Shown here: one piece after another, positions 3,246-62,137 of the stretch
Layout: the number at the start of each line of letters is the position of its first letter
Numbering within the stretch: position 1 is the stretch's first letter
IMG/VR virus record: IMGVR_UViG_3300028298_000007
Span: 1 to 64,000 of that record
DNA: 64,000 nt
From: a virus
Strand: one strand, 5' to 3'
Notes under the pieces: generated by a model
Database searches by the model: none
Seen by the model: only the letters and a program-made list of their open reading frames with translations
What the model was told of the DNA's origin: nothing
Program-made: the position numbers and the translations under genes

Positions 3246-3296
3246 ATGACTCAAGACATGTTAGAGTTCTTATTTCCAGAGAGTTACCGGGATTAA
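3246..3296 (+). CDS. possible 16-residue leader-like ORF
   Basis: The micro-ORF MTQDMLEFLFPESYRD is preceded by AAAGG at good spacing. Its TAA stop (3294-3296) forms part of stem II of the hammerhead ribozyme that follows, so ribosomes ending here would melt that stem. It may act as a leader peptide rather than encode a functional protein. Confidence 0.3.
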   Translation: MTQDMLEFLFPESYRD

Positions 3297-3399
3297 ACGA
3301 AACATCGGAGATAATACTTGCACTTTGACCTTACCGAAGGTTATAAAAGGCAAGACACCTTTATCTCCGATGTCCGCTATTAAAGCGCTGATGAGTTTA
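3294..3399 (+). ncRNA. type II hammerhead ribozyme 1
   Basis: All hammerhead core elements are present in type II order. Stem II 5' strand is TAAAC (3294-3298). GAAA is at 3299-3302. Stem III is 12 perfect bp (3303-3314 with 3361-3372). The cleavage triplet is GUC (3372-3374), cut after C3374. Stem I is CGC/GCG (3375-3377, 3385-3387) with a 7-base loop. CTGATGA is at 3388-3394. Stem II 3' strand is GTTTA (3395-3399), pairing perfectly with TAAAC. The 46-base cap of stem III contains a further hairpin, ACCTT-ACCG-AAGGT. It would split the polycistronic message between 3296 and 3438. Confidence 0.85.
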
Positions 3400-3437
3400 T
3401 CTCTGGTCAGAAAACTTTTAAGAGAGGGGGTGAAAAG

Positions 3438-3629
3438 ATGAAAATCGTAATCGGAGAAGGCAGATTAAAACTTTCTGCAAAGCAGGCCACAGACGGAGTA
3501 ATCTTTTACAGGGTCTTAGCGCCTAACCTTAGAAGGATTATGCAGCATAAGAAAAGAGATTTATCTGTCGTAGGCACTTGGGTAGCTTACGAAGATATAA
3601 TCGTCTGGTTTAAGAAAGGAGATTTATAA
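3438..3629 (+). CDS. hypothetical protein
   Basis: This 63-residue basic protein is preceded by GAGAGGGGGTGAAAAG, a very strong ribosome site. It is the first cistron downstream of hammerhead 1, so its message would start with the cleaved 5'-OH end. No motif is recognised. Confidence 0.6.
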   Translation: MKIVIGEGRLKLSAKQATDGVIFYRVLAPNLRRIMQHKKRDLSVVGTWVAYEDIIVWFKKGDL

Positions 3630-3967
3630 TGGAAAGAGAATATTTCCACGCGACAGTGCAAAGAGTTTCTATTGAAGCAAAAGAAGTCCGCGAAGAAAAA
3701 ATCGCAAGAAGCGGTTTTCTTAATTTAAGAAAGACGATATTCGAGCAGATTCATTTTGAAGATGAGTATTTTATCTTCTGCAAACTCGACAGCACTAATG
3801 TCGTATTGAAGATCAAGACAACAAAAGAAATACTGGAACAGGCGAGAACAGGAGATTCAGTATCTGTTCATCTCAGATTTGATTTTGAATTTGCCTGTTA
3901 TCACTTTATCAAAATTAAAGAAGAAGAAAAGGTTATTCAGGTAGAAAGGAAAATTGTATGCGAATAA
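3629..3967 (+). CDS. hypothetical protein
   Basis: A 112-residue protein of alternating strands and charged segments, with no recognised domain. Its ATG overlaps the previous TAA (TAATG), indicating translational coupling. AAAGGAG lies inside the preceding gene. Confidence 0.65.
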   Translation: MEREYFHATVQRVSIEAKEVREEKIARSGFLNLRKTIFEQIHFEDEYFIFCKLDSTNVVLKIKTTKEILEQARTGDSVSVHLRFDFEFACYHFIKIKEEEKVIQVERKIVCE

Positions 3968-4194
3968 AACTTTTCGTAAAAGACAATAAGATTTGCTACT
4001 CCACAGGGAAGGGGAAGTGGACTGCGCTGCCAAGAGGTAGTGGCGATTTGACTTACCAGTTATCTCCAGCTGAAACAATCTTAGTGGTAAAACATGGCTG
4101 GATTTACGCAGGACAGATCGAAGGCCGGGATATGTCCGGTATAGGCGGACTTAAAACAATCACAGAGGTGATGAAACATGGAAAAGCTAAATAG
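3958..4194 (+). CDS. hypothetical protein
   Basis: A 78-residue protein with a Gly-rich middle (KGKWTALPRGSGDL). Its start overlaps the upstream gene by 10 bases, with GAAAGG upstream. Function unknown; tight packing supports it as a real cistron. Confidence 0.6.
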   Translation: MRIKLFVKDNKICYSTGKGKWTALPRGSGDLTYQLSPAETILVVKHGWIYAGQIEGRDMSGIGGLKTITEVMKHGKAK

Positions 4195-4333
4195 AGTTCA
4201 GATATACTTAAATTCTTTTGGCTACCCGAGATCTATTGTAAATCAATACAAAACAGGTTCAGATAATTACCGAGAGGAGGTGAAGATAAATGGCGAAGAA
4301 AAAAGGTTACAAAATAACAGCAAAAAATGTTGA
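4178..4333 (+). CDS. small hypothetical protein
   Basis: A 51-residue frame begins inside the end of the previous gene (GAGGTGATG upstream) and runs 44 bases into the next. The extensive overlap at both ends makes it uncertain. If real, it would be coupled to both neighbours. Confidence 0.35.
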   Translation: MEKLNRVQIYLNSFGYPRSIVNQYKTGSDNYREEVKINGEEKRLQNNSKKC

Positions 4334-4472
4334 GTATCTTATTTCGCAGTATATAAATGCTGACAGCGCCGAAGAAGCAAAGAGTATTTTCAAACAGGAT
4401 TTTGAAAATGGTCAAATAGGTGTAGGTGGTTCAGAAGTCCAGTTTCAGGAAGTAACAATAGTTAGGAGGTAA
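4290..4472 (+). CDS. hypothetical protein
   Basis: A 60-residue Lys-rich protein preceded by GAGAGGAGGTGA, among the best ribosome sites in the window. No domain is recognised. Confidence 0.6.
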   Translation: MAKKKGYKITAKNVEYLISQYINADSAEEAKSIFKQDFENGQIGVGGSEVQFQEVTIVRR

Positions 4473-4475
4473 AGA

Positions 4476-4745
4476 ATGTCTAAAATAACAGAAAAGCAAA
4501 TCGGAGTTGTCGGTGTTGACAGCGGAACCTTGCTTCTTGGAGATCCTTGTTACTGGTTATCTGATAAGGATTACGAAAAGGAAGTTTTGAACCCTCACTT
4601 CGATAGGTCAAGACAAATCTGCTACGACTTAGGGCACAAAGGTAAAGGCGTCCTGGTGTCAAGCGGATATGGAGACGGCTGTTATCCTGTTATCGCAAAG
4701 TTTCAAGATGGCAGAGTAAAAGAAGTTACAGTCAAATTCTTTTAA
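4476..4745 (+). CDS. DUF4241-like protein
   Basis: This 89-residue protein has the pattern VGVDSGTLLLGDPCYWL near the N-terminus and SGYGDGCYPV later. This GDP-CY and DGDG-CYPV pair recurs in DUF4241-like proteins of phages and bacteria. Biochemical role unknown. Preceded by TAGGAGGTAAAG. Confidence 0.6.
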   Translation: MSKITEKQIGVVGVDSGTLLLGDPCYWLSDKDYEKEVLNPHFDRSRQICYDLGHKGKGVLVSSGYGDGCYPVIAKFQDGRVKEVTVKFF

Positions 4746-4755
4746 GGAGGTTTAG

Positions 4756-5337
4756 ATGCCTAATTGGTGTGAAAATGATTTAAGAATTACAGGCTCAAAG
4801 AAAGAACTCAAGCGCTTTAAGGCCTTTGCCAAAGGAACAGAAGAAGATGAATTATTGTCTTGTGAAAAATTTATTCCTTATCCGGATAAGTTTAAGAAAC
4901 AAGACGAATTGGCAAATAAGAACGGAAAGTTAAGACAGGATTTAATTGATAAGTTGATTAAAAAAGGAACCCCTGAAGACAAAGCAAGAGAAAAAGCGTT
5001 TAAGGATTTTCCGGCTATCCCAGACGGATTTAATCAAGGCGGTTACGACTGGTGCGTAAAAAACTGGGGAACGAAGTGGGGCTTCTGCGATATTCATCTT
5101 GAAGAAGAAAACCTTAGCGATAAAGAAGATAAGTATAATGAATTTCTTTATTCCTTTAACACTGCCTGGAGCCCGGCAACACCTGTTATACAGAAAATGG
5201 GGGAGATGTTTCCGCTGCTTGAATTTGATCTGCGCTATTTTGAACAAGGCGCTGGATTTAACGGAATTTTCTGGATGAAAGATGGTAAAGTAGAACAGGA
5301 TAAGACAGGAGAGTATTTTGGTAATAGGGGAGGGTAA
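4756..5337 (+). CDS. Api92/YubB ferredoxin-like family protein (DUF1281)
   Basis: This 193-residue protein begins MPNWCENDLRITG, the signature N-terminus of the Api92-like/DUF1281 family found in phages and plasmids. Further family features are YDWCVKNWGTKW and FNTAWSPATPVI in the middle and an aromatic C-terminal domain. The fold is ferredoxin-like; function unknown. The start is fixed by AAGGAGG at 4744-4750. Confidence 0.75.
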   Translation: MPNWCENDLRITGSKKELKRFKAFAKGTEEDELLSCEKFIPYPDKFKKQDELANKNGKLRQDLIDKLIKKGTPEDKAREKAFKDFPAIPDGFNQGGYDWCVKNWGTKWGFCDIHLEEENLSDKEDKYNEFLYSFNTAWSPATPVIQKMGEMFPLLEFDLRYFEQGAGFNGIFWMKDGKVEQDKTGEYFGNRGG

Positions 5338-5338
5338 A

Positions 5339-5437
5339 ATGTCGAGCGGAGATTTAGGTTTGACTATTATATTATGTACACTTTTTATATGCATTGCGGT
5401 TATACGATATGCACATTGGAAATATGGAGGTCATTAA
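5339..5437 (+). CDS. small single-pass membrane protein
   Basis: A 32-residue ORF with one transmembrane segment (LTIILCTLFICIAVI). It overlaps the last bases of the previous gene. Probably inserted in the inner membrane; function unknown. Confidence 0.45.
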   Translation: MSSGDLGLTIILCTLFICIAVIRYAHWKYGGH

Positions 5438-5438
5438 A

Positions 5439-5657
5439 ATGCCGAAATTCAAAGTTGTTATATCTTTGGGCGTCAATTCTTATATTATTGACGCTGAGAA
5501 TAAAGATCAAGCAGTAGATAAGGCCGGTGAAGAAATGGTCAAGGAATTAGAGAACATCAAGTTAGAGAACTTTGTAGAAGTGTATGAGGCTACTGCTGAA
5601 GACATAGCAGAAATCGAAAAAGAGAAATCTGCTTTGGCTTCAGGAGAGCCTTCATAA
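5439..5657 (+). CDS. hypothetical protein
   Basis: A 72-residue acidic protein with a beta-rich start (KFKVVISLGVNSYIIDAENKDQA) and a helical, Glu-rich end. The N-terminal pattern resembles short DUF-type phage proteins with a strand-helix-strand unit. The start at 5439 is chosen for the TGGAGG upstream. The stop is immediately followed by hammerhead 2. Confidence 0.6.
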   Translation: MPKFKVVISLGVNSYIIDAENKDQAVDKAGEEMVKELENIKLENFVEVYEATAEDIAEIEKEKSALASGEPS

Positions 5658-5717
5658 GCCGAAACGCCTGCGGGAAACCGCAGCGTCAGCCGTAAGATAA
5701 AGCGGCTCTGATGAGGC
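5658..5717 (+). ncRNA. type II hammerhead ribozyme 2
   Basis: Stem II is GCC (5658-5660) with GGC (5715-5717). GAAA is at 5661-5664. Stem III (5665-5685) is CGC/GCG plus TGCGG/CCGCA capped by a GAAA tetraloop, with one bulged C. The GUC triplet is 5685-5687, cleavage after C5687. Stem I is AGCCG/CGGCT (5688-5692, 5703-5707) with a 10-base loop. CTGATGA is at 5708-5714. Every core base matches the hammerhead consensus. It starts directly after the TAA at 5655-5657. Stem II is short and open, normal for type II. Confidence 0.88.
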
Positions 5718-5769
5718 AAAAGTATATCAGAATTATCTTGAGGCCAATAACTTTTGAGAGGAGATTTAA

Positions 5770-5910
5770 ATGAGATGGTATGAAATAGCAAAAAATCTTT
5801 CGCATAAAGAAAATTGGACAGAACAACTAATATATGTCCATAAGACAAGATTAATTTTAGGATTTATCTTAGGAATTATATTAGGATATTGTTTAGGATT
5901 ATTATTTTAA
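5770..5910 (+). CDS. small membrane protein with glycine-zipper helix
   Basis: This 46-residue ORF follows hammerhead 2 and has GAGAGGAG upstream. The C-terminal half is a hydrophobic helix with spaced glycines (LGFILGIILGYCLGLLF), a pattern that favours helix packing in membranes. Function unknown; a pore-forming or signalling role is only speculation. Confidence 0.5.
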   Translation: MRWYEIAKNLSHKENWTEQLIYVHKTRLILGFILGIILGYCLGLLF

Positions 5911-5928
5911 TTTGAGAGGGGGTGAAGC

Positions 5929-6096
5929 ATGAATAATGAGTTATTAAATCTCTTACGCAAACGCAGGTTAGCCGGCCAATGCATTATCTGCGGCCGCGAG
6001 ATTTCGGATAAGAGTATCGTAATCAGTCATTCCGAACTCGGCGAGGTCAGGATCTGCGAAGAAGATATCAAAACCGGAAGCAAGAGTTCAGGATAA
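5929..6096 (+). CDS. small zinc-ribbon-like protein
   Basis: A 55-residue basic protein with a CIIC pair and a later Cys (RICEED). Preceded by GAGAGGGGGTGAAGC. The layout resembles half of a zinc ribbon. Function unknown. Confidence 0.5.
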   Translation: MNNELLNLLRKRRLAGQCIICGREISDKSIVISHSELGEVRICEEDIKTGSKSSG

Positions 6097-6166
6097 GTAA
6101 AGGTGATTTAAGATTAAAATTATCTTTCGTTACAGCTCTATGCTAAACGGAGATAGAAAGGAGAAA

Positions 6167-6361
6167 ATGTATAAAACATTTATAAGAACCTGGTGGAAAT
6201 TAAATCCAAAATGGCCTAACGGTTTAGAGCCGCATGCAGGGAGAAAGGTTTATTGCAATACTTGCTCCACAGAAGAAGAGGCGCGGGCATGTTGTAAAGC
6301 ATATAACTCTACTCACGAACCCGGGAGATTAAGCAAAAAAATGGAATACGAAAGAGTATAG
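6167..6361 (+). CDS. hypothetical protein
   Basis: This 64-residue protein begins MYKTFIRTWWKLNP and has a HAGRKVY segment followed by CNTC and ACC, a compact possibly metal-binding unit. The start at 6167 (GAAAGGAG upstream) is preferred to the longer frame at 6140, which lacks a ribosome site. Confidence 0.6.
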   Translation: MYKTFIRTWWKLNPKWPNGLEPHAGRKVYCNTCSTEEEARACCKAYNSTHEPGRLSKKMEYERV

Positions 6362-6369
6362 GAGGTAAT

Positions 6370-7005
6370 ATGGGTTACACTCATTATTGGCGCAGAGAAA
6401 AAGAAATAGAGCAAAGTAAGTTCAATGATATACTCATTGACTTTAAGAAAGTCTTGCCGGAGATAGAGAAGGCCGGAGTTCAATTAGCTGATGGGCGTGG
6501 AGAGGAAACACCTATTTTTAACTCTGAAGAAATTATATTTAACGGCAAAGCAAAATGCGGACACAAAGTCGATGAAAGAATAATAATACCTTGGCCTACG
6601 AAGAACGCCGGCGGCGTAGCTAATAACTGGAAAGAAGACGCTAAAAAGGGAAATTGGTTTGCTGGAGCGGAGATAGAAAAAAGGGTCTGTAACGGCGATT
6701 GCAGTTATGAAACTTTTAGCTTCCCGCGAGTATTTAAGCCCGAAAGCTGGTCAAGGCCGGAAGAAGGATTATATTTTGAGTTTTGCAAGACCGCCTTTAG
6801 GCCCTATGATTTTGCTGTAATTGCTTTTTTAATTATAGCGAAACATCACCTACAAGAAAAAATCAAGGTATCAAGCGACGGAGAAGATCAACATTGGTTT
6901 GATGGAAAGATGCTCTGTCAAATGATATTAGGCTATGGTTTTGAGTACAGGATTGATAAAGACGGAGAACTGATATTAATAAAGGAGGCCACATGCAAGA
7001 AATAA
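6370..7005 (+). CDS. MGYTHYW-type conserved phage protein
   Basis: This 211-residue protein begins MGYTHYW, the start of a recurrent phage/bacterial hypothetical family, and has conserved aromatic and Cys residues (CGHK, CNGDCSYETF). No catalytic motif is certain. TAGGAGG precedes the start. The last 13 bases overlap the next ORF. Confidence 0.65.
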   Translation: MGYTHYWRREKEIEQSKFNDILIDFKKVLPEIEKAGVQLADGRGEETPIFNSEEIIFNGKAKCGHKVDERIIIPWPTKNAGGVANNWKEDAKKGNWFAGAEIEKRVCNGDCSYETFSFPRVFKPESWSRPEEGLYFEFCKTAFRPYDFAVIAFLIIAKHHLQEKIKVSSDGEDQHWFDGKMLCQMILGYGFEYRIDKDGELILIKEATCKK

Positions 7006-7148
7006 AAGTAGGGGATAAATTAACAATCAAGGTTGAGGTAAGAAAAATTATCGAAGATAAAACCGGTAAGCACTACGATGTTTTTCCAGAAGGTTGTGAA
7101 TCTTTTAGCAATACTATGATTGTTGAACCACAACATATTATTGAATAA
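6993..7148 (+). CDS. small hypothetical protein
   Basis: A 51-residue protein starting inside the previous gene with AAAGGAGG upstream. It opens with a strand-turn-strand pattern (IKVGDKLTIKVEVRKI). The TAA (7146-7148) is followed directly by hammerhead 3. Confidence 0.5.
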   Translation: MQEIKVGDKLTIKVEVRKIIEDKTGKHYDVFPEGCESFSNTMIVEPQHIIE

Positions 7149-7215
7149 TCTCGAAACTGGGGCTAACCTGATAGAAACGCCCCAGTCTTATTGTTAATCA
7201 ATAACTGATGAGAGA
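7149..7215 (+). ncRNA. type II hammerhead ribozyme 3
   Basis: Stem II is TCTC (7149-7152) with GAGA (7212-7215). GAAA is at 7153-7156. Stem III is CTGGGGC/GCCCCAG (7157-7163, 7179-7185). The GUC triplet is 7185-7187, cleavage after C7187. Stem I is TTATTG/CAATAA (7188-7193, 7199-7204) with a 5-base loop. CTGATGA is at 7205-7211. The stem II 3' strand is also the Shine-Dalgarno stretch (GAGAGGA) of the gene at 7225, so folding and initiation would compete. Confidence 0.88.
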
Positions 7216-7224
7216 GGATATAAT

Positions 7225-7401
7225 ATGCAAGAAATACTGAAACTAAGTTTAAAGAAGGTCATTCTTAATTATCTTGGATTAAGATTTTCTAGACAAAGAG
7301 AACCGTTATCTTCATTCAAAGTTTTCGTAATCGTAAAAAAAGAGGTAGTAAGTAGAGCAAATGAAAGTTTCGTAATTCATGAATGGAAGGAGGTGATATA
7401 G
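7225..7401 (+). CDS. small hypothetical protein
   Basis: A 58-residue basic protein whose ribosome site (GAGAGGA) lies in stem II of hammerhead 3. Its start MQEI matches the start of the ORF just before the ribozyme. The stop abuts the next ATG at 7402. Confidence 0.45.
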   Translation: MQEILKLSLKKVILNYLGLRFSRQREPLSSFKVFVIVKKEVVSRANESFVIHEWKEVI

Positions 7402-7680
7402 ATGCTGACAGTAGAAAGATTAAAGCGAATTGAACCCAGAACTATCTTTGCCACCGGGACATTTATTGACAATGACTTAGGGTTATTTATGACAGGTAGC
7501 GGTAAAGAACTGCGCTGGGTTGCGGTAAAAGGAAGCAACAATGATTGGTGTATTTACTGCCATTTTGCTACTATGAGTAAAGAATTTATCAGAACTGAGG
7601 GGGATAAGGTTTGCATGGAGCGTAACATTAGAATGTGCATGCCTTGCGATGATGAAGTATTTAAGAGATACCGATATTAA
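7402..7680 (+). CDS. hypothetical protein
   Basis: A 92-residue protein with a beta-rich first half (TIFATGTFIDNDLGLFMTGSGKELRWVAVKG) and several Cys later (CIYC, CMERN, CMPC). It is probably a small globular metal-binding protein of unknown role. GGAAGGAGGTGATATAG precedes the ATG. Confidence 0.6.
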   Translation: MLTVERLKRIEPRTIFATGTFIDNDLGLFMTGSGKELRWVAVKGSNNDWCIYCHFATMSKEFIRTEGDKVCMERNIRMCMPCDDEVFKRYRY

Positions 7681-8481: not shown

Positions 8482-10059
8482 ATGCAATTACAAACATTAA
8501 AAATAGACCAGATCGCCATAGGCGATAATATAAGGAAAGACATTACCAAAGACTCCGTAGCCAGTCTAATCGAATCGATTAAGGACAAAGGAATATTGCA
8601 GCCGTTATTAGTCAGGGTTAACGGTGGTAAGTTCGACCTGCTGGATGGCTATCGCAGGATCAACGCGGCCAAGTTTGCTGAATTAAAAGAAGTCCCGGCA
8701 ATTATTATCGAAGCCGATAAAGCTGAGCGCGTTGAGTATCAGTTAGTGGCAAATTTGCAACGCAAGGACCTAAACGCAATTGACGAAGCCTTAGCTTATA
8801 AGGCATTAGGCGATGATTTTAAAGTAAAAGACATTATGGTAATCACCGGCCGGCCGGAATACAGGATCCGCAGGATATTAGCGCTGCTTACATTGTGCGA
8901 AGAAGTACGGAACATGATTAAGAATAATGAGGTTTCCGAAGATCATGGTTTCGTATTGACAAGGATATCCAGTCCGAAATTCCAAAAAGCCTTAGCCAAT
9001 GACATCAAGAAATACCGGTATTCTCCAAGCCGCGCTGAAAACGAGTTAAGCCATTATTCCCAGCGACTTGAGACCGCTTGCTTTGATAAAACGCAATGCA
9101 AGGCCTGCACGTTTAACGGCAACCTGATGAAGGATCTTTTTGATAAAGAAAATTCGATGTCCGGACAATGCCTGAACGCCGATTGTTATTTCAAGAAAAT
9201 CGCCGAGTTCCAAAAAGTAAAAGAAGCCGAAATAAAGAAGCAGGGGAAGAAAGTAATAGTGGTCAAGGAAGAGCCTTCTTATGGGACTAAGGAATATGAG
9301 GCAATGAAAGAACTGGTTGATTTTACCGGTTACGAAGCGCAGGGTTTTGACAAAGAACAATTCAATACCGAATGTACCAAGACCTGCCCGACCTTCGCGT
9401 TTATCATAGGTCCTGCCGGCCAGGTTAAACCGGTTTGCTTAAATGCTGATTGTTTCAAACGCGCCTTACGCAAAGCCAAAGCAACGGAAAGAAAAGGAAC
9501 GGCTATGCCTAAGACAGGCGATCCTGAGAAAGACGCCTCTATTCAATACGAGGCCAGGCAGAAAGAAAACCGCGTTGATTTCTTTAAGCGTGATTTCTTC
9601 ATTAAGGGCCTGAAAGAAAACGCTAAAGATATCCAACTTAACAGGATATTGCTGCATCAGTTATTCAGCTTGGAAAGCAGTAACGGCGAAACAATTTCAG
9701 AATTGCTCAAAGCAACTAAGAAGCAGCCGAATTACATGATGAGGAATTTTGAGCGCCTTAATGAATTAAACAACGCTAAACTGATTGAATTGATTAAAAT
9801 CCTTATTCTTAGCCACCTAAACGGTTATTCTACAATTGAATTGCAAAAATTAGGCGAAGAAGCTGGTCTGGATTTAGCTAAGTTTATAATTACCAAAGAA
9901 TACCTGGAGAAATTCTCTAAAGCAGGTTTGCATAAGTTAGCCAACGAATTGAAATTAAAAGTAGGCAGCCTAGTCTGGAAGGATAAGAAAGATGATATAA
10001 TCAAAATCATGCTGGCTTCCGGTTGTAAAGGTAAAGTGCCTAAGGAGATGTTGAAATGA
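8482..10059 (+). CDS. ParB-like nuclease-domain protein with two Cys motifs
   Basis: This is a 525-residue protein. Residues 6-110 match the ParB/Srx fold: IAIGDNIRKD, GILQPLLVR, FDLLDGYRRINAAK, then VANLQRKDLNAIDEALAY. A helix-turn-helix-like segment follows (112-160). Two similar Cys units come next: C206-C209 with C230-C235, and C298-C302 with C319-C324, both ending CLNADC, probably zinc sites. Roles may be DNA partition, CTP-dependent DNA clamping or nicking. The start at 8482 has AAAAGGAG. It opens the replication part of the arm. Confidence 0.8.
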   Translation: MQLQTLKIDQIAIGDNIRKDITKDSVASLIESIKDKGILQPLLVRVNGGKFDLLDGYRRINAAKFAELKEVPAIIIEADKAERVEYQLVANLQRKDLNAIDEALAYKALGDDFKVKDIMVITGRPEYRIRRILALLTLCEEVRNMIKNNEVSEDHGFVLTRISSPKFQKALANDIKKYRYSPSRAENELSHYSQRLETACFDKTQCKACTFNGNLMKDLFDKENSMSGQCLNADCYFKKIAEFQKVKEAEIKKQGKKVIVVKEEPSYGTKEYEAMKELVDFTGYEAQGFDKEQFNTECTKTCPTFAFIIGPAGQVKPVCLNADCFKRALRKAKATERKGTAMPKTGDPEKDASIQYEARQKENRVDFFKRDFFIKGLKENAKDIQLNRILLHQLFSLESSNGETISELLKATKKQPNYMMRNFERLNELNNAKLIELIKILILSHLNGYSTIELQKLGEEAGLDLAKFIITKEYLEKFSKAGLHKLANELKLKVGSLVWKDKKDDIIKIMLASGCKGKVPKEMLK

Positions 10060-16799: not shown

Positions 16800-16877
16800 G
16801 CGAGGGTAGTGAAGCGGCCCATCACGCCAGTTACCGCATATAACTGGAGATCGCTGGTTCGAATCCAGCCCCTCGCT
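16800..16877 (+). tRNA. tRNA with enlarged anticodon arm (possibly Cys-GCA)
   Basis: The acceptor stem is GCGAGGG/CCCTCGC (7 bp). The D stem is GTGA/TCAC with GG in the loop. The T arm is GCTGG-TTCGAAT-CCAGC and the variable loop is 5 nt. The anticodon arm (16826-16846) is odd: CCAGT/ACTGG encloses 11 bases, or two extra pairs give a 7-bp stem and the loop CCGCATA. In the latter the anticodon would be GCA, but position 33 is C instead of the near-universal U. CCA is not encoded. It may be a non-standard, decoy or degenerate tRNA. Confidence 0.7.
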
Positions 16878-31597: not shown

Positions 31598-32593
31598 TTA
31601 TGCGCTAAAGCTGCTTGAGCTGCTGGAATTAGAAGAACTACTCATACTGCTCGAACTACTTGAACTACTTGAACTCGAAGATCTGCTCGAAGAACTGGAA
31701 CTGCTCGATCTGCTCGAAGAACTGGAACTGCTTGAACTAGATGAACTGCTGGAACTGCTTGAACTAGATGAACTGCTGGAACTGCTTGATTGGCTAGAAC
31801 TGCTTGAACTTATTGAACTGCTTGAGAAACTTGAACTCGACGAACTGCTGGAACTACTCGATAATGAAGAACTACTTGAAGAACTCGAACTGCTTGAACT
31901 AGATGAACTGCTGGAACTGCTTGATTGGCTCGAACTGCTTGAACTAGACGAACTACTCGATTGGCTCGAACTGCTTGAAGAACTTGAACTGCTTGAAGAA
32001 CTTGAATGTCCGTCTATAGGAACATAAGTTGTCCACCTATCTTCTATCAAAGATATTCCTGTATGCAATAATTGATAGGAAGCTAATTGCCGGCTTAATT
32101 GATCTTCTGCAAAACACATACGCATATAATATTCATAACTAACTAGTATTGCGCCGGCTACAGGCGCGGTATTAAAATCTATATAAGATATTTCATTAAC
32201 GAAATCATTAGTTAATACGTAATTGGTAGTGGCAACTCCGCCTACAGTACAAGAATGATTAGCGGCCGTATCTACAGGAAAATTAAATAAGATAAACCTA
32301 GTGGTAGAATTATTCGCGTCTCCGATAGGCTCATCAGTAGTAGCATATTCAGTAAGGACCTTAATTAAAAAATAATCATACATTCCTTTGCGGGAAATAT
32401 AAAAATTCCAGATTAAATCCATGGCCGCCTTGGTCAGGAAACGACAGGTAAGTTTATAACCCCTTAGGCCATCCTCCCAGAGCGCATCCCTATACTTCTT
32501 GCCATTTTCTGATTCAGTAACATTCGTATTGAAAGCAATACTTTCTTCTAATCCGAATTCAGGAGTTAATGTAAGTATATGTTCATAACTCAA
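31598..32593 (-). CDS. DUF2460-like tail protein with polyserine tail
   Basis: A 331-residue protein. Residues 1-195 match the distal-tail DUF2460 layout (FGLEESIAFNTNVTESENGKKYRDALW, RFLTKAAMDLIWNFYISRKG). Residues 197-329 are nearly all Ser with rare Q, L, F, I, R, M and N. The tract is disordered and probably exposed on the virion. It is one of five such proteins in the window. Confidence 0.75.
   Translation of the reverse strand: MSYEHILTLTPEFGLEESIAFNTNVTESENGKKYRDALWEDGLRGYKLTCRFLTKAAMDLIWNFYISRKGMYDYFLIKVLTEYATTDEPIGDANNSTTRFILFNFPVDTAANHSCTVGGVATTNYVLTNDFVNEISYIDFNTAPVAGAILVSYEYYMRMCFAEDQLSRQLASYQLLHTGISLIEDRWTTYVPIDGHSSSSSSSSSSSSSSQSSSSSSSSSSSQSSSSSSSSSSSSSSSSSSSSLSSSSSSSSSSSFSSSSISSSSSSQSSSSSSSSSSSSSSSSSSSSSSSSSSRSSSSSSSSRSSSSSSSSSSSSMSSSSNSSSSSSFSA
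31601..32005 (-). repeat. polyserine-encoding low-complexity tract
   Basis: Mixed AGC/AGT/TCN codons repeat with near-27-bp periodicity, encoding residues 197-331 of the DUF2460-like protein. Confidence 0.8.
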
Positions 32594-35765: not shown

Positions 35766-36779
35766 TTAGGCGCTTTGAGAACTAGAACTCGATGAAGAAC
35801 TCATACTGGAACTAGAACTCGAGCTCGAAGAACTTGAGGAAGCCCCTAATGTTATAGTCATTTCATCGTTACCTGCGTCAGAATTCTTGCAAATCTCACA
35901 GGTGGCGTTCATTATTCTTATTCCGCCTCGATCTCCTTCCTTAAGTCCGGTATATCTGACTGCCGGCAGAGAAAATTCTATGGAGTTGCCATTTGAATCA
36001 TTGACTATGATTGATACGGCCATAGTTGCCCGGGACATAATCTTAGAATAAAAATCATGGTCGGTAGTCGCGACTAATTCAGGATCAAAGGTTAATACCG
36101 GATTCCTACCGGTAATTTTGGCATAATCAATGCCTGAGGCGTCTTGTGGTTTAGGCGAAATTACTATTTCATTCTGCATATCTATTTCGCAAGCATCCAG
36201 CACTAACGCGTCGCCGTCAATCATGACTGTAGCTCCCATAAATACAAAAGGTACCTGAGTCGGATATGTCGGACTCAACATTGATTGGTCGCTATGTTCT
36301 GAATATTTTCCCTGCATGGCAAATTCGCAGAATATAGGTTCGCCTACTTTAAACTGGAATTTTACGTTGCCGGCGCAACCCAGCATTGTTTTTCTAAAAC
36401 CATCTTCATATTTAGCGATAGTGCATGTCGGAAAGCTACTGGATATCGGAGCAAAAATATTTGAAACTCCTGCTGAAAGCGACTCACTCCATCCACAGGC
36501 CCTTAAGAATGGCGTTATCGGCAAGGTAGTACCCTTAGATCCGGAAGCAGGCCCCATCAATTCAGCCTTAAAAGTTAAGGCCATTTTCCTTGCGCCGGGC
36601 TCAGAAACGAACCTAGACATATGCTTTACTACCGGATTTCTTTTAAACTGCTCAAATTCAGCATCCATTACAGGATCATAAGCTAATATTGTTGCCTGCG
36701 CTGCTGCTAATGTTTCAGCCACACCACTAGTGGTTTCCACTTTCCCGGCCAATTGCGCTATGCGTGATATTTTTGCCAC
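35766..36779 (-). CDS. major tail tube protein with short polyserine tail
   Basis: A 337-residue beta-rich protein starting MAKISRIAQLAGKVETTSG, with a tube-like core and Cys near the end. Residues 314-337 are Ser-rich (12 Ser, Met, 8 Ser, Gln-Ser-Ala). Copies in hundreds per virion would stud the tail with serine tails. Size, order and neighbours support the tube assignment. Confidence 0.75.
   Translation of the reverse strand: MAKISRIAQLAGKVETTSGVAETLAAAQATILAYDPVMDAEFEQFKRNPVVKHMSRFVSEPGARKMALTFKAELMGPASGSKGTTLPITPFLRACGWSESLSAGVSNIFAPISSSFPTCTIAKYEDGFRKTMLGCAGNVKFQFKVGEPIFCEFAMQGKYSEHSDQSMLSPTYPTQVPFVFMGATVMIDGDALVLDACEIDMQNEIVISPKPQDASGIDYAKITGRNPVLTFDPELVATTDHDFYSKIMSRATMAVSIIVNDSNGNSIEFSLPAVRYTGLKEGDRGGIRIMNATCEICKNSDAGNDEMTITLGASSSSSSSSSSSSMSSSSSSSSQSA
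35769..35840 (-). repeat. polyserine-encoding tract
   Basis: Encodes the last 24 residues of the tail tube protein, mixed Ser codons with one Met and one Gln. Confidence 0.8.
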
Positions 36780-38684: not shown

Positions 38685-39932
38685 CTAAACTGCGCTTTCT
38701 ACATAGACATCAAATATCTTGAAGAACGCGCCTGAAACACCTCCGAACTCAAGCGACTTAATACCGCTTTCAGTAGCAGTTATTTCTACCTTGACATATC
38801 TACCATTCTTAGGCGTACAAGCTACTTCTTTCCAAACAGTAGTATCTTGCCATTCCGAAATAGCAAGGGCGACTGCAGTACCCCAATTGCCATTAGTTTC
38901 GCTGACATAGATATTAATATTGGTAGGATCGCAGCTTAAATTACCGCCTGAGCGTCCTCTGACTTGCTGTACATTATAGATATTGCCTAAGTCGATAACA
39001 AACTCATGAGTTTCATTAACCGTATGTTTCCATACATTCGTACCGGCCAAAGCATTTTCAGGAGTTGTATCTCCGCCGTCATCGCCGCAGTGAGATTCGA
39101 GATATGTATTATCTATCCCGAGCCATCCGGTTGTAGTAGAACTGCTCGAAGAAGAACTAGACGAACTGCTTGACGATGAACTGCTCGAACTAGACGAACT
39201 GCTTGAACTTAATGAACTGCTCGAACTAGACGAACTGCTTGAACTTAATGAGCTTGAGCTAGATGAACTGCTAGAGCTGCTCGAAGAACTTGAACTGCTT
39301 GAGCTGCTCGAACTAGACGAACTGCTTGAACTTAATGAGCTTGAGCTAGATGAACTGCTAGAGCTACTCGAAGAACTTGAACTCGAAGAACTTGAACTCG
39401 AAGAACTTGAACTAGATGAACTTCTAGAACTGCTCGAAGAACTTGAACTGCTTGATTTACTTGAACTAGATGAACTGCTAGAACTTCTGGAACTGCTGGA
39501 ACTACTGGAACTGAATGAACTGCTGGAGCTACTTGAAGAACTAGAACTGCTAGAACTGCTCGAAGAACTAGACGAACTTGATCCAGTTCCAGTTACAGTT
39601 ACATTAAGTGCATGCCAATAAGTTCCATCACACCAGAACTCAGCATTTTCATATTTTCCTATCTGCGCCGTATCATAACTTCCGCCGCCGCCGTTAAAAC
39701 CAGCCGTAACAAAAACATAGCCCTGGCTAGTAGTGGTTACCTGTATATTGACACCTTTAAGTTTAGCGCTCGCGGCGGGTAAAGTTAACTTGATATTTCC
39801 GGTAGTTAACTTTATAAAAAGATAACCACTCTCCAGAATATCATCTTCTGTAAGAGTATAGTCTGCGGTCTTTGTGAGAGTTGTTCCTCTCTTGTTTGCA
39901 ACAGAATATTTATATCTAGTAGGTTTTGGCAT
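38685..39932 (-). CDS. virion decoration/fibre protein: N-domain, polyserine linker, F5/8C-like domain
   Basis: This is a 415-residue, three-part protein. Residues 1-116 are a beta domain homologous to the next upstream gene (39956-40300). Residues 118-265 are nearly pure Ser. Residues 266-415 look like a discoidin (F5/8 type C) sugar-binding fold: GIDNTYLESHCGDDGG, FVIDLGNIYNVQQVRGRSGG, YVKVEITATESG. The layout suggests a capsid- or tail-anchored protein presenting a carbohydrate-binding head on a long serine stalk. Confidence 0.75.
   Translation of the reverse strand: MPKPTRYKYSVANKRGTTLTKTADYTLTEDDILESGYLFIKLTTGNIKLTLPAASAKLKGVNIQVTTTSQGYVFVTAGFNGGGGSYDTAQIGKYENAEFWCDGTYWHALNVTVTGTGSSSSSSSSSSSSSSSSSSSSSSFSSSSSSSSRSSSSSSSSSKSSSSSSSSSSRSSSSSSSSSSSSSSSSSSSSSSSSSSSSSLSSSSSSSSSSSSSSSSSSSSSSSSSSSSLSSSSSSSSSSSLSSSSSSSSSSSSSSSSSSSSSSSSTTTGWLGIDNTYLESHCGDDGGDTTPENALAGTNVWKHTVNETHEFVIDLGNIYNVQQVRGRSGGNLSCDPTNINIYVSETNGNWGTAVALAISEWQDTTVWKEVACTPKNGRYVKVEITATESGIKSLEFGGVSGAFFKIFDVYVESAV
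39138..39581 (-). repeat. polyserine-encoding tract
   Basis: Encodes residues 118-265 of the decoration/fibre protein; short repeats of mixed Ser codons with scattered L, R, K and F codons. Confidence 0.85.
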
Positions 39933-43372: not shown

Positions 43373-45022
43373 TTATTTTTTTAATGTCCAAAAGTCAGAG
43401 TTAATACTCTCTCTTTTTGCGATAAATATTCCTTTAAGTTTATCGCCTGAAAACTCTATTGTTTTCTCTAACTCTGTTGACTCTAAAATAGATACTTTAC
43501 CTTTATCTAAATTTCTTTCCCAAAGTGGCATAGATGTTGGGTTAAGTTGACTTAAAGGTGGCAAAAATGCTATTACTTTAGATTCACTATATTTATCAAA
43601 TTTCGATAGTTTTATATAAAAAACTGATTCTTTAAAGTTTTCATTTAACAAATCTTTATCTAAAATCATATCAATACCTAAATCGGTAGCAATAATAAAA
43701 TCTTCTATCTTAGGAACTGACTTATTCCACCTAGTATAGTAAGCAAATTCGCCAAATTTCCTTTCGGCTTCTTTCATCTTAATATCAAACTTATATCCGC
43801 GGTAATCAATACCGCTGTCTTTTAATGCTTTTAACGTATCAAAAGCTTGCTGGCCTCCATCAGGTTGAACTATAATATATTTATATTCAGTAAATTTATC
43901 AAAAAGTTCTAACGCAAAAGGAGATAACTTTTCCGGTTGGAAGTTGGTAGTCCCAGCCTCAATCATTTTCTTTACGCAATTATAAAATGATTGTTTTAAC
44001 TGCTCAAAATCCTGTTTTACTTCTTCCCCGCGCCTTTTAGCGGCATATAGTTTAAGGATTTGCTTTAATTCTTCCTGATGATCTTTACTTTCCTCAAGTC
44101 TTATATCGGACTGATTGATAAAATCCAAGACCTCTATCATTTCTGCATTATCAAAACAAGATGTCGATAGATACGAACTATTCTGCTGTATAGGATAATT
44201 CGTAACTACCAATTCATTCTTTCTGGTCATATGGCCTGAACTAGGTGCCGCTAGATTATATTGAGAAAGTATCTTGCGGTTGTATTTTGCCTCTTTCCAA
44301 CCATCACAAACTTCGTAAGTAACCATCCACTTACCGGGAATAGTCTTAGTGAAGGATTCAAATTCTTCCTGCGTAGGACACCATTTCCAATTCATCTTTG
44401 CGCTAGGATATGGCGGATCAAGGAAAGTAAAAGATTCTGCGGTAGAATATTTTTTAACAAAATCCTTATAGTCCATATTTTCTATAGTTACGCCGGCCAA
44501 TCTTTCTTTTATCTTGGCCAGTCGCGTAGTTAATTTCATTACCTCGCCTTCGGCCCTATCATCGTAGGAGCGCATTTCGCCGGCATCGCTTGCTGCCTTG
44601 ATATAGACATAGCGGTAGAACTGGTAAACTGGGTCTTTATTTGTCGGACTTTCTTTATATTCACCGAGTAATTTATTAAATGTTTCCTTAGACGTCTTCC
44701 AGTCCATTTTATTCAATTCTTCTATCTGCTGGTCAGTGATATTCTGCATGAACTTAAAACACGAAACAATCTCAGAATCCTTGTCATTAATAAACTCTTC
44801 CGATCCTTTATTCTTCCTGAATAATACGCTTCCGCCACCTATAAATGGTTCGACATACCTTTTGTGTTCAGGAAACATTGATATTAACTTTCCAGCCACG
44901 AAGAACTTTCCACCGGGGGAGCCAAAAGCAGGTTTTACGCCTTCATTAATTTTCTCATTAGAGATTAAGTCTATTTTATCCAAAGAAAAATCTTCTAATA
45001 ACGGTAGTAAAAAATTATTCAT
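43373..45022 (-). CDS. Dam-like N6-adenine methyltransferase with extra C-terminal domain
   Basis: This is a 549-residue protein. Residues 35-290 match D12-class Dam enzymes: FVAGKLISMFPEH, YVEPFIGGGSVLF (motif I), and FLDPPYPSAK (motif IV DPPY). The C-terminal 250 residues have no recognised fold: helical to about 370, then alpha/beta with YKYIIVQPDGGQQAF and YYTRWNKSVPKIEDFIIATDLG. A methylase between portal and capsid genes, where head morphogenesis genes usually sit, is odd. The start at 45022 is fixed by AGGAGG and overlaps the portal stop. Confidence 0.8.
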   Translation of the reverse strand: MNNFLLPLLEDFSLDKIDLISNEKINEGVKPAFGSPGGKFFVAGKLISMFPEHKRYVEPFIGGGSVLFRKNKGSEEFINDKDSEIVSCFKFMQNITDQQIEELNKMDWKTSKETFNKLLGEYKESPTNKDPVYQFYRYVYIKAASDAGEMRSYDDRAEGEVMKLTTRLAKIKERLAGVTIENMDYKDFVKKYSTAESFTFLDPPYPSAKMNWKWCPTQEEFESFTKTIPGKWMVTYEVCDGWKEAKYNRKILSQYNLAAPSSGHMTRKNELVVTNYPIQQNSSYLSTSCFDNAEMIEVLDFINQSDIRLEESKDHQEELKQILKLYAAKRRGEEVKQDFEQLKQSFYNCVKKMIEAGTTNFQPEKLSPFALELFDKFTEYKYIIVQPDGGQQAFDTLKALKDSGIDYRGYKFDIKMKEAERKFGEFAYYTRWNKSVPKIEDFIIATDLGIDMILDKDLLNENFKESVFYIKLSKFDKYSESKVIAFLPPLSQLNPTSMPLWERNLDKGKVSILESTELEKTIEFSGDKLKGIFIAKRESINSDFWTLKK

Positions 45023-47435
45023 TAATAGCCTCCTCTGTTTCTTCCTGTTCATTTTCCATATCAACACCTAACTGATTTATTACCGCATTGATTACAGTCT
45101 TTGCCTGTTTGTCTGTAATCCATTTTTTATCGGAAGCCTGGACAAGTCCTCCGACTAATCCATTCATAGCCTCAGCAACGCCTTTATTATCCCGAGATAC
45201 TATAGGAGAAGGTATTACGGTAAAACTTCTATCAACATCTTTCTTCAATGTACCGGCAATTATAGCCTGATCTATAGCAAAATTAAACATATGCTTAATC
45301 ATAAATTTTACTTTTTTCTGTTTTGATTTTAAATTTTTTAAAGTCGGAAGTCCCATTTCCATCGCAGTTTGAAGTTGTATTGCGATTTTACCATTTCTAC
45401 GAGTAATCATAAATTGATAAGGCATACTAAAACAATAAACCTTACCATTGTATTGTTCTTTTTGAATATTAGATTCGTATCGTTTTCCTCTGTTATTAAC
45501 TTGTATTCTATTTCTTAAATCTCTTTCAATGATATTGCTACCACTAATAATGTTCCATTTAAACTTTCCTTTTATGGAAATGGAAGTCCTTGAAGAATAT
45601 CCAAGAAGTAAACAAATAATTTGAAAATCATCCTTTAATTGATTTGAATTTGTAGAATAATTGAAACAATTTCTGCCTTTTCTTTTATCAAATGAACCAT
45701 CTCCTGCCATCATAGATTTAAAAAGAATTTCTAAGTATGGTTTATCTAACTGCAATATATCTTTCGGTATTCTTTTTTCTTTACTTACACAACCAATATT
45801 TTCTTTAAGATAGTGCCAAAGAGATTTATTACTAATATTAAAAACTGTAACACCTTTACCATTATCAGATTCATTGGCCTGAAATCCAATTTTTTTCAGT
45901 AAGTTTCGTATAATTTTAACATTATATTCTTTTTTTTGAGCTATTCTGACACAAAATCTATTTTTAGCATTATTAAGATATCCTTCTGAAAGATACCAAC
46001 CAAGAAAATCTACCCAATCTTTCATCACGAATTTTCTTGGACTATCTTTTATTCTTGATTGAATATCATAAGAAATATAAGGTAATTCAAAATATTCTTG
46101 TTTTTTACCAATCCAATTTTTTGCGCCTTCTTTGATATAAAATGTTTTATATGTTATATCTTTTGCCTGAATAATCTCAAATTTTCTTCCTTTATGCGCT
46201 TCTTTAATCCACATTCTATGTTCAGGCGTTACTAAAATATCTGTTCTTGTATTAGTAAAATGATACATTTCTCCTTTATAATCATAAAGATATATATTGC
46301 CTTTAGGTTTACAGAATTCAATTCTATCTTTATCAGGATTAAAAGTAGCTAATTTTTCTCCTTTTTTAATTTCCCAATATTTTTTCCATCCATTTTCAGT
46401 TAAAGTTTCTGTATCTTCACTATAACAGGCGCGAGTAGTGCGGCTTCCTTCGGCAAACCAATGTTCGGGATATCCTGCTCCACCTAATATCTGATTTTTG
46501 AATAGCCTTGCTTCTTCTGAAGCGTCAGCCCCTTCTAACTTCGGAGTTTCAGATTTCCATTTAATCTTATCATTATGCGCTCTTATTGAACCTGGCCTAG
46601 GAGTAGCCAAAGTCTTGACAAATTCCTGTAATTCTTCTTTGGACATCCCTTCGCACTCAATATCCCATATAAAAGTATTTATCAAAAATGCTCTCTCAAG
46701 CCTAGCAAAAAGAAATTGGTCATAGCCATCCAGCCAATCAGCTAAGCGCAATAACGTACTTCTACCGCGTGTAGCAGAACTTACTTTATTAATGGTAAAA
46801 TAGAAACAATCTCCGACTAATTTTCCGTAAGATTTTGATTTTAGATTTTTATCGATATTAATAATGCTTAATTCTCTTTCAACTTGACCAGTTGGTTTTC
46901 TCCATATAAGTGTTTTATTGAGTTTAGCGTTATAAGGATCTTTCTTTATTTTTAATATTGTCTTAGGATCCATATAACTTAATTTAACAGCGCCATCAGC
47001 TGAATTAACCCAGACCGGTAAACAAAGTTCTCCGAAAAGATAAAGTTCAACAACATTAATATTCATTTCTTCATCAAGATTATTATCCGGATCATTCCAA
47101 AAATTATCTAATACTTCCTTTACGTCCTTATCTTTAGCTGTAAAAGTAAAACCATCTCCGATTACAAAATCTTCGATGATTTCAATTATACGGCCGGCCA
47201 TAGGGTTGCTATCATATAGGTAAAACGCTATATCCTGCATTCTGCGCTGCGTAAGCAGATTAAGGTCCCTATGCTGGTTAGTAGTCAATGAACGCCATAA
47301 TGCGTCATCACTTGATCCGCCTACCATTGGATATGATTCGTCTATCTTGCGTAAAATCTCAACATGCCTTTTTTCGCGTTCCTTGAAATCTACTACAACA
47401 TTTTTTGATTCATCTGCTTTTACTTTTTTTTTCAT
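45015..47435 (-). CDS. portal protein interrupted by an intein
   Basis: An 806-codon gene. Extein parts are residues 1-336 and 690-806 (453 residues joined), typical of portals: SYPMVGGSSDDALWRSLTT, MAGRIIEIIEDFVIGDGF, TRGRSTLLRLADWLDGYDQFLF, and QILGGAGYPEHWFAEGSRTTRA joined to TAMEMGLPTLKN. The junction site is a conserved portal motif, a common place for inteins. Twelve portals form the DNA gate of the head. Order TerS-TerL-portal confirms it. Confidence 0.85.
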   Translation of the reverse strand: MKKKVKADESKNVVVDFKEREKRHVEILRKIDESYPMVGGSSDDALWRSLTTNQHRDLNLLTQRRMQDIAFYLYDSNPMAGRIIEIIEDFVIGDGFTFTAKDKDVKEVLDNFWNDPDNNLDEEMNINVVELYLFGELCLPVWVNSADGAVKLSYMDPKTILKIKKDPYNAKLNKTLIWRKPTGQVERELSIINIDKNLKSKSYGKLVGDCFYFTINKVSSATRGRSTLLRLADWLDGYDQFLFARLERAFLINTFIWDIECEGMSKEELQEFVKTLATPRPGSIRAHNDKIKWKSETPKLEGADASEEARLFKNQILGGAGYPEHWFAEGSRTTRACYSEDTETLTENGWKKYWEIKKGEKLATFNPDKDRIEFCKPKGNIYLYDYKGEMYHFTNTRTDILVTPEHRMWIKEAHKGRKFEIIQAKDITYKTFYIKEGAKNWIGKKQEYFELPYISYDIQSRIKDSPRKFVMKDWVDFLGWYLSEGYLNNAKNRFCVRIAQKKEYNVKIIRNLLKKIGFQANESDNGKGVTVFNISNKSLWHYLKENIGCVSKEKRIPKDILQLDKPYLEILFKSMMAGDGSFDKRKGRNCFNYSTNSNQLKDDFQIICLLLGYSSRTSISIKGKFKWNIISGSNIIERDLRNRIQVNNRGKRYESNIQKEQYNGKVYCFSMPYQFMITRRNGKIAIQLQTAMEMGLPTLKNLKSKQKKVKFMIKHMFNFAIDQAIIAGTLKKDVDRSFTVIPSPIVSRDNKGVAEAMNGLVGGLVQASDKKWITDKQAKTVINAVINQLGVDMENEQEETEEAINE
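45369..46427 (-). mobile_element. intein with LAGLIDADG homing endonuclease
   Basis: Residues 337-689 of the portal frame. It begins Cys337 (CYSEDTETLTENGW, block A), with DILVTPEHRMW (block B), LAGLIDADG motifs FLGWYLSEGYL (477-487) and LFKSMMAGDGSF (571-582), and block F GKVYCFSMPYQFMITRRNGKIAI. The last two residues are Leu688-Gln689 before Thr690, where His-Asn or Gly-Asn is normal. Gln-ended inteins are known but rare. DNA here is more AT-rich than the exteins. Confidence 0.88.
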
Positions 47436-49899: not shown

Positions 49900-51033
49900 T
49901 TAATGTTCTTTAAATTTATAATCATAAGTATTATCTTTAAATTTATAATCATAAGTATTATCTTTAAATTCAACTTTATTTGGTAATGAAGAAGCCGAAC
50001 TGGAACTTGAACTCGATGAACTAGAAAAACTTGAACTGCTAGAAGAACTCGAGCTACTTGAACTAGATGAACTGCTCGAAGAACTTGAACTGCTGGAGCT
50101 ACTCGAAGAACTTGAACTGCTAGAACTACTCGAAGAACTTGAACTGCTGGAACTCAATGAACTGCTCGAAGAACTTGAACTGCTGGAGCTGCTCGAAGAA
50201 CTTGAACTGCTGGAACTGCTTGAAGAACTTGAACTGCTGGAACTGCTTGAAGAACTTGAACTGCTGGAACTCAATGAACTGCTTGAAGAACTTGAACTGC
50301 TGGAGCTGCTTGAAGAACTTGAACTGCTGGAACTGCTTGAAGAACTTGAACTGCTGGAACTGCTTGAAGAACTTGAACTGCTGGAACTCAATGAACTGCT
50401 TGAAGAACTTGAACTGCTGGAGCTGCTCGAAGAACTTGAACTGCTGGAACTGCTTGAAGAACTTGAACTGCTGGAACTGCTTGAAGAACTTGAACTGCTG
50501 GAACTCAATGAACTGCTTGAAGAACTTGAACTGCTGGAGCTGCTCGAAGAACTTGAACTGCTGGAACTGCTTGAAGAACTTGAACTGCTGGAACTCAATG
50601 AACTGCTTGAAGAACTTGAACTGCTGGAGCTGCTTGATGAACTTGAACTTCTGGAGCTGCTTGAAGAACTTGAACTGCTGGAGCTACTTGATGAACTTGA
50701 ACTGCTGGAGCTGCTTGAAGAACTTGAACTGCTGGAGCTGCTTGATGAACTTGAACTGCTGGAACTCAATGAACTGCTAGAACTACTAGAAGACCTAGAG
50801 GAACTAGAACTACTAGAACTGAATGAACTGCTAGAACTACTAAAGGAACTAGAAGAACTAGAACTACTAGAACTGAATGAACTGCTAGAACTACTAGAGG
50901 AACTAGAAGAACTAGAACTACTAGAACTGAATGAACTACTAGAACTACTAGAGGATAACGAACTGCTAGAGGACGATGATGAACTAGCATCCGTCGTTGC
51001 ATACATATTATCTATATAAAAAGTATTTGCCAT
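49900..51033 (-). CDS. almost pure polyserine protein
   Basis: A 377-residue protein. Residues 1-16 are MANTFYIDNMYATTDA, 17 to about 349 are Ser with regular F, L or R, and the end contains two tandem copies of a nine-residue unit FKDNTYDYK. There is no catalytic domain. An ATG with ribosome site and its length show it is a real gene. It is the longest Ser tract in the window and likely a highly exposed or modified virion filament. Confidence 0.75.
   Translation of the reverse strand: MANTFYIDNMYATTDASSSSSSSSSLSSSSSSSSFSSSSSSSSSSSSSSSSSFSSSSSSSSSSFSSSSSSFSSSSSSSSRSSSSSSSSLSSSSSSSSSSSSSSSSSSSSSSSSSSSSSSSSSSSSSSRSSSSSSSSSSSSSSSSSLSSSSSSSSSSSSSSSSSSSSSSSSSSSSSLSSSSSSSSSSSSSSSSSSSSSSSSSSSSSSSSSSSSSSLSSSSSSSSSSSSSSSSSSSSSSSSSSSSSSSSSSSSSSLSSSSSSSSSSSSSSSSSSSSSSSSSSSSSSSSSSSSSSLSSSSSSSSSSSSSSSSSSSSSSSSSSSSSSSSSSSSSSSSSSFSSSSSSSSSSASSLPNKVEFKDNTYDYKFKDNTYDYKFKEH
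49911..49964 (-). repeat. 27-bp tandem duplication
   Basis: Two exact or near-exact copies of a 27-bp unit encode the repeated nine-residue FKDNTYDYK near the C-terminus of the polyserine protein. Confidence 0.8.
49987..50985 (-). repeat. nested tandem repeats encoding polyserine
   Basis: The basic unit is 27 bp (9 Ser codons). A higher-order 117-bp unit repeats at 50153, 50270, 50387 and 50504, each marked by one Leu codon (antisense CTCAATGAA). A separate 54-bp array (50819, 50873, 50927) is marked by Phe codons. The structure indicates growth by unequal recombination or slippage. Confidence 0.85.
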
Positions 51034-61789: not shown

Positions 61790-62137
61790 TTAAGCGCTTC
61801 TTATCACAGCCAAGATGTCCTCATCCTTAATCAAGAACAATTGCCTGTCCTTTTGGCCGGGTATTTTAGATACCTCTATTATTTCGGTGTAAGAATATTT
61901 GGAAAACAGCACAATATCGCCGCTGGTTATCTTAAATTTGATATCACTATCGCCAGCCACCGCGATGACCCGGCCCTTGGTCGGCGCCTTAGGCTTAGTC
62001 TGGCCGGGTAAACTTACCGCGCTGTCATCCCCCGGGATAATTATGCCTCCTGGAGTCTTTTGTTCCTTAGTCTTGGTGTCTTCAGGCTCAACCAGCACCC
62101 TCTTATTTAACGGATCCACTATATTCATCCTTTTCAA
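61790..62137 (-). CDS. groES: GroES-like co-chaperonin
   Basis: A 115-residue protein with NKRVLVEPEDTKTKEQKTPGGIIIPGD (mobile loop), KGRVIAVAGDSD, ITSGDIVLFSKYSYTEI and LIKDEDILAVI, matching Cpn10 throughout. It is about 18 residues longer than GroES, with extra residues in the roof-loop region (AVSLPGQTKPKAP). Phages use such proteins (as T4 gp31) to fit capsid or tail proteins into GroEL. TTG at 62137 or ATG at 62128 may be the start. Confidence 0.88.
   Translation of the reverse strand: MKRMNIVDPLNKRVLVEPEDTKTKEQKTPGGIIIPGDDSAVSLPGQTKPKAPTKGRVIAVAGDSDIKFKITSGDIVLFSKYSYTEIIEVSKIPGQKDRQLFLIKDEDILAVIRSA

Follow-up and report, generated by a model that had tools for sequence, protein, structure and literature searches.

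What do three hammerhead ribozymes do when they stand one after the other among the small genes of a single phage gene run, each immediately behind a stop codon? The question is raised by a stretch of viral DNA of 64,000 nucleotides (hereafter the window), nearly all of a 64,751-base IMG/VR virus record. From its letters alone, an earlier sequence-only reading had picked out three type II elements and proposed that they divide one polycistronic message into units, perhaps under the control of terminating ribosomes. As argued below, the hammerheads probably cut a rightward polycistronic phage transcript just behind the stops of small genes, which would give each segment its own lifetime or translation level without producing non-stop messages.

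Three type II hammerheads in one gene run

A script requiring GAAA, a UH dinucleotide, CTGANGA and all three stems, applied to both strands of the 64 kb, returned exactly three complete type II hammerheads, at the same coordinates as the sequence-only reading (Table 1), and no fourth one; in 300 order-2 Markov shuffles, again on both strands, it returned none. The core is GAAA, UC and CTGATGA at all three sites, in accordance with the conserved hammerhead core (GAAA, UH at the cleavage site, CUGANGA). Stems I and III are closed by loops and stem II is open, which is the type II layout. The elements are found within 3.9 kb, between plus-strand ORFs, as several members of one co-oriented gene run. 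Predicted cleavage falls after C3374, C5687 and C7187, in agreement with the 5' ends proposed earlier (3375, 5688 and 7188).

That each hammerhead follows the stop of an ORF holds at all sites, but the "ORF" of site 1 is a mini-ORF of only 16 codons, whose TAA (3294-3296) forms the three outermost pairs of stem II. The TAA of sites 2 and 3 adjoins the hammerhead, as had also been claimed.

Table 1. Coordinates of the three hammerheads and of the neighbouring features in the window
Feature	Position	Strand	Details
16-codon mini-ORF, MTQDMLEFLFPESYRD	3246-3296	+	SD-like AGAAAGG; ahead of hammerhead 1
Hammerhead 1	3294-3399	+	stem II 3294-3298/3395-3399; GAAA 3299-3302; stem III 3302-3314/3361-3373; stem I 3375-3378/3384-3387; CTGATGA 3388-3394
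63-aa ORF downstream of hammerhead 1	3438-3629	+	SD GAGAGGGGGTG
72-aa ORF	5439-5657	+	TAA 5655-5657 directly before hammerhead 2
Hammerhead 2	5658-5717	+	stem II 5658-5660/5715-5717; GAAA 5661-5664; stem III from 5664, one bulge; stem I 5688-5693/5702-5707; CTGATGA 5708-5714
Hammerhead 2 pseudoknot	5693-5740	+	loop I 5693-5700 to 3' tail 5733-5740; 7 Watson-Crick pairs and one wobble
51-aa ORF	6993-7148	+	TAA 7146-7148 directly before hammerhead 3
Hammerhead 3	7149-7215	+	stem II 7149-7152/7212-7215; GAAA 7153-7156; stem III 7156-7163/7179-7186; stem I 7188-7193/7199-7204; CTGATGA 7205-7211
GAGAGG, SD-like site of next ORF	7212-7217	+	GAGA is the 3' strand of hammerhead 3 stem II
58-aa ORF downstream of hammerhead 3	7225-7401	+	ATG 7225

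The Rfam type II model (RF02276), named in advance as a check, gave a divided answer. Only site 2 is reported, with 29.3 bits, under the gathering cut-off of 37 bits, which is a curated threshold and not a biochemical definition; at E<=5 the model finds neither site 1 nor site 3. The copy of hammerhead 2 in a relative, L116, does score above the cut-off (41.1 bits). Real phage hammerhead copies are missed by this cut-off.

With RF02276 the window copies share the order GAAA-stem III-UH-stem I-CTGATGA, the open stem II and, at site 2, a pseudoknot between loop I and the 3' tail; they differ from it in their scores, in the long and branched stem III of site 1 and in the lack of a clear pseudoknot at sites 1 and 3. 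This pseudoknot is a feature of a majority of type II hammerheads, not of all. At site 2 it stands out against shuffled tails (P=0.0085), and its AGATA/TATCT is present also in L016 and L017. At sites 1 and 3 the pairing is no better than with shuffled tails, so that these two hammerheads may be slow. The minimum free energy fold of site 2 is the hammerhead itself, while those of sites 1 and 3 are without stem II. The predicted fold of site 2 also pairs stem II with coding sequence that lies before it, but no counterpart was seen in L116 and this pairing was dropped.

As to other signals in the window, promoter-like matches show no excess over shuffles, and terminator-like matches number 18 against 9.8 in shuffles, all of them only candidates. 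A tRNA-Cys (GCA) gene (16800-16877, plus strand) is found within the rightward gene run. On the minus strand, an intein-like stretch that contains a LAGLIDADG domain (Pfam PF14528) breaks up a portal-like ORF (45015-47435), several ORFs of the structural region (49900-51033, 38685-39932, 31598-32593 and 35766-36779) contain polyserine tracts of great length in which L, F, R or Q occur here and there, and a resolvase with a MerR-like HTH (62134-62778), resembling IS607-type transposases, lies near the end of the record.

Conservation and covariation in related phages

A ParB-like protein encoded downstream (8482-10059) led to the relatives L002, L003, L016 and L017, the last standing for a group of near-identical contigs; the mini-ORF pattern added contig 3300031707_000110, of which L037 and L116 are parts. 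Among named phages, blastn of a phage collection gave no match to the window region or to the array of contig L055 described below, and ParB alignment gave no match among bacterial genome contigs.

Hammerhead 1 is intact in six phages (the window, L002, L003, L016, L017 and L037). Across them all 16 counted stem pairs are formed everywhere and 12 have changed on both sides, while sliding the partners by 1-3 columns leaves only 25-45% paired. Stem II itself swaps between TAAAC/GTTTA and ATAGC/GCTAT. As a search pattern in viral contigs, TAAAC..GTTTA had 4 matches, of which only L002 folds, those in L012, L014 and L015 being due to chance.

Hammerhead 2 is intact in three relatives (L016, L017 and L116), behind an upstream gene which is not the same in every relative. 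It is absent from L002, and the L003 copy is damaged by an extra T after CTGATGA and by a C.U mismatch. Among the relatives hammerhead 3 is intact in L116 only: compensated changes relative to the window affect all of its stem III and some of its stem I, the TAA directly precedes stem II, and GAGA lies within the GAGAGG of the next gene, exactly as in the window. Small ORFs similar to the 51-aa ORF precede the corresponding position in L002, L003, L017 and L116, and what follows is variable. The junction contains the 5' half of the hammerhead alone in L017, the 3' half alone in L016, apparently after upstream genes were deleted, and a hairpin after TCTCAAA in L003; L002 carries a tRNA in its place (7355-7436; Rfam 40.8 bits, 8-base anticodon loop). 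Since tRNAs are themselves RNA-processing targets, this junction hosts one or the other of two types of RNA-processing signal. With site 3 broken in most relatives and site 2 missing from L002, not every copy can be needed.

Pooling sites 1-3 over the intact copies, 110 of 110 cells are paired. Stem-breaking changes in related phages had been named as a possible refutation: none was seen at the stem positions examined in intact copies, but the L003 copy of site 2 and several copies of site 3 are indeed broken. Judged from the sequences of the window and its relatives, the three elements are genuine ribozymes kept by selection.

Stop codons and viral type II hammerheads

Whether the shared placement behind stop codons, pointed out for the three sites, is a local feature was assessed on a scan of viral contigs with stem II fixed as GCC/GGC (at least 120 stretches) and a scan with the site 3 pattern, which together gave 161 correctly folding hammerheads, 158 of them distinct, among the matches listed. 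Taking ORFs of at least 40 aa, a stop is found within 60 nt before GAAA in 139 of these 158 listed hammerheads. In about two thirds of the listed hammerheads it lies 2-8 bases before GAAA, as against about 9% of control GAAA sites; ORFs were called mechanically for this comparison, and nearly all of its hammerheads share a single stem II sequence. The distance is just two bases in 19 listed cases, for example where a TAG overlaps GCC. The stop-codon placement is thus real and general among the sampled viral type II hammerheads. Type III hammerheads, sought as a comparison set, gave no match with the pattern chosen.

Arrays far denser than the three in the window exist: two other viral contigs hold 9-10 hammerheads each in about 5-6 kb. 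RF02276 matches number 10 in the one, L055 (contig 3300038412_000035), most of them following ORF stops, and 9 in the other, L118 (contig 3300036851_000550), all above the Rfam cut-off.

The placement could simply reflect genome economy: in a compact phage an intergenic element would be pushed against the preceding stop, with no link to the ribosome. This explanation, which bears on the placement and not on whether the ribozymes cut, is a serious contender, if a little short of probable. The distance from hammerhead to next start is short too: in the 58 listed cases with co-oriented genes on both flanks the median gap is 1 nt upstream and 26 nt downstream. Furthermore, the gap between stop and stem II at site 2 is not fixed, being 0 bases in the window, 10 in L016, 4 in L017 and 2 in L116. 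Yet ordinary gene pairs of the same loci are rarely so tight: where a SD follows the stop, the stop-to-SD gap is -1 to 5 in 10.6% and above 20 in 78%, as estimated with rough gene calls which miss small genes. Terminator-like hairpins of the same loci (25 usable) stay away from stops, with a median gap of 30 nt against 1 nt for hammerheads when ORFs of at least 100 aa are considered. Finally, there is room downstream of hammerhead 2, with 50-100 bases before the next start both in the window and in L003, L016 and L017.

Probable message cutting and its possible link to translation

The proposal that the three elements cut one polycistronic message is favoured by their co-oriented intercistronic position and by covariation across relatives, cleavage itself being predicted. 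Each cut would leave the upstream mRNA with a complete ORF and its stop codon. Given the type II topology, in which the cut falls between stems III and I, the upstream product would end, one base after the strong stem III hairpin, in a 2',3'-cyclic phosphate, and the downstream mRNA would start with a 5'-OH at the stem I hairpin, ends which may affect the stability of the segments. In fold predictions the upstream product ends in a strong stem III hairpin at all three sites; the downstream product of site 1 folds into the stem I hairpin at its 5' end, and the free downstream products of sites 2 and 3 refold away from that hairpin.

Cutting may, in addition, be coupled to translation. With the stop adjoining or overlapping stem II, the footprint of a terminating ribosome should extend over GAAA and the 5' strand of this stem, and folding should then be delayed until the ribosome has moved off. 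The folded ribozyme of site 3 would, moreover, mask part of the Shine-Dalgarno sequence of the next gene. Ribosome gating of cleavage is plausible; that phage type II hammerheads are in general translation-gated cutters, with the mini-ORF as the sensor of hammerhead 1 in this clade, is a more doubtful proposition. If it were true, intergenic cutting of a message would be confined to times at which the stem II stop is free of terminating ribosomes.

In all six phages a mini-ORF of 15-16 codons with a SD-like site precedes hammerhead 1, encoding MTQDMLEFLFPESYRD, MEPEILEWLFESYRD, MEEWLLDLLYPNSFPE, MDEEMLNWLFPESYKD, MDDEMLAWLFPESYRD and the GTG-started DTEMLEFLFPESYKD. Its stop forms the outermost portion of stem II (TAAAC or TAAAT), abuts stem II in L016 and, as TGA, falls inside an extended stem II in L017. 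The flanking genes vary among relatives, so that mini-ORF and hammerhead 1 stay together while their neighbours change. Mini-ORF and ribozyme might then form a switch resembling a leader peptide, in which translation of the 15-16 codons decides on the cutting of the message. The retention in six phages of the SD and of an end resembling LFPESYRD would fit such a device, as would a stop which always abuts or enters stem II, but the peptide contains no obvious regulatory codon run, and an ORF so short offers weak statistics on coding selection (dN/dS is mostly uninformative, synonymous sites being saturated). We regard this switch as unlikely.

It is highly improbable that pairs of hammerheads serve to release a defined or circular RNA (3375-5687, 5688-7187) as a functional product. 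The 5'-OH and 2',3'-cyclic phosphate which cleavage would yield are the ends used in ligation, and related ribozymes form circles in other systems (PMC6155905); some relatives (L002), however, keep one intact site only, and Perreault et al. sought spliced or circular products of hammerhead clusters and found none (PMC3088659). That the hammerheads are leftovers or accidental structures which no longer do anything is hardly credible, for the broken or replaced site 3 of four relatives and the damaged site 2 of L003 are outweighed by the strongly covarying, intact site 1 of six phages and by the empty shuffles.

Message cutting, the preferred reading, has precedents. In naming single hammerheads as those known from phages, the sequence-only reading fell short of the published record: in 2011 Perreault et al. 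described clustered hammerheads in prophages, including a tested triple, proposed that they process long phage transcripts, and showed that three clusters cleave in vitro and one in E. coli (PMC3088659). As clusters and the cutting of gene-length transcripts have thus been published, the arrangement in the window is not new in kind. As in the prophage clusters (the Agrobacterium tumefaciens triple, Clostridium scindens, Azorhizobium caulinodans), hammerheads flank single genes or short blocks; unlike them, those of the window are all type II, and neither the stop placement nor a mini-ORF module is mentioned in the available part of that report. The same source places the HHphage hammerhead of haloviruses HF1/HF2 in a polycistronic transcript of early genes, a 5' end of which has been mapped close to the site of cleavage. 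It differs in belonging to an archaeal virus and in being a single site, 13 nt before the helicase start, which is not described there as following a stop (PMC3088659). A search of open-licence papers gave nothing relevant on the stop-codon placement of hammerheads, and both this regularity and the mini-ORF/ribozyme module appear to be undescribed in that literature.

The cluster of the window is probably part of a practice that is common among phages and little understood, the intergenic cutting of long messages. Later works still call the role of hammerheads in bacteria and phages unknown (PMC6155905, PMC10085705); the regular placement behind stops, the dense arrays and the mini-ORF/ribozyme unit make the question of that role simply testable.
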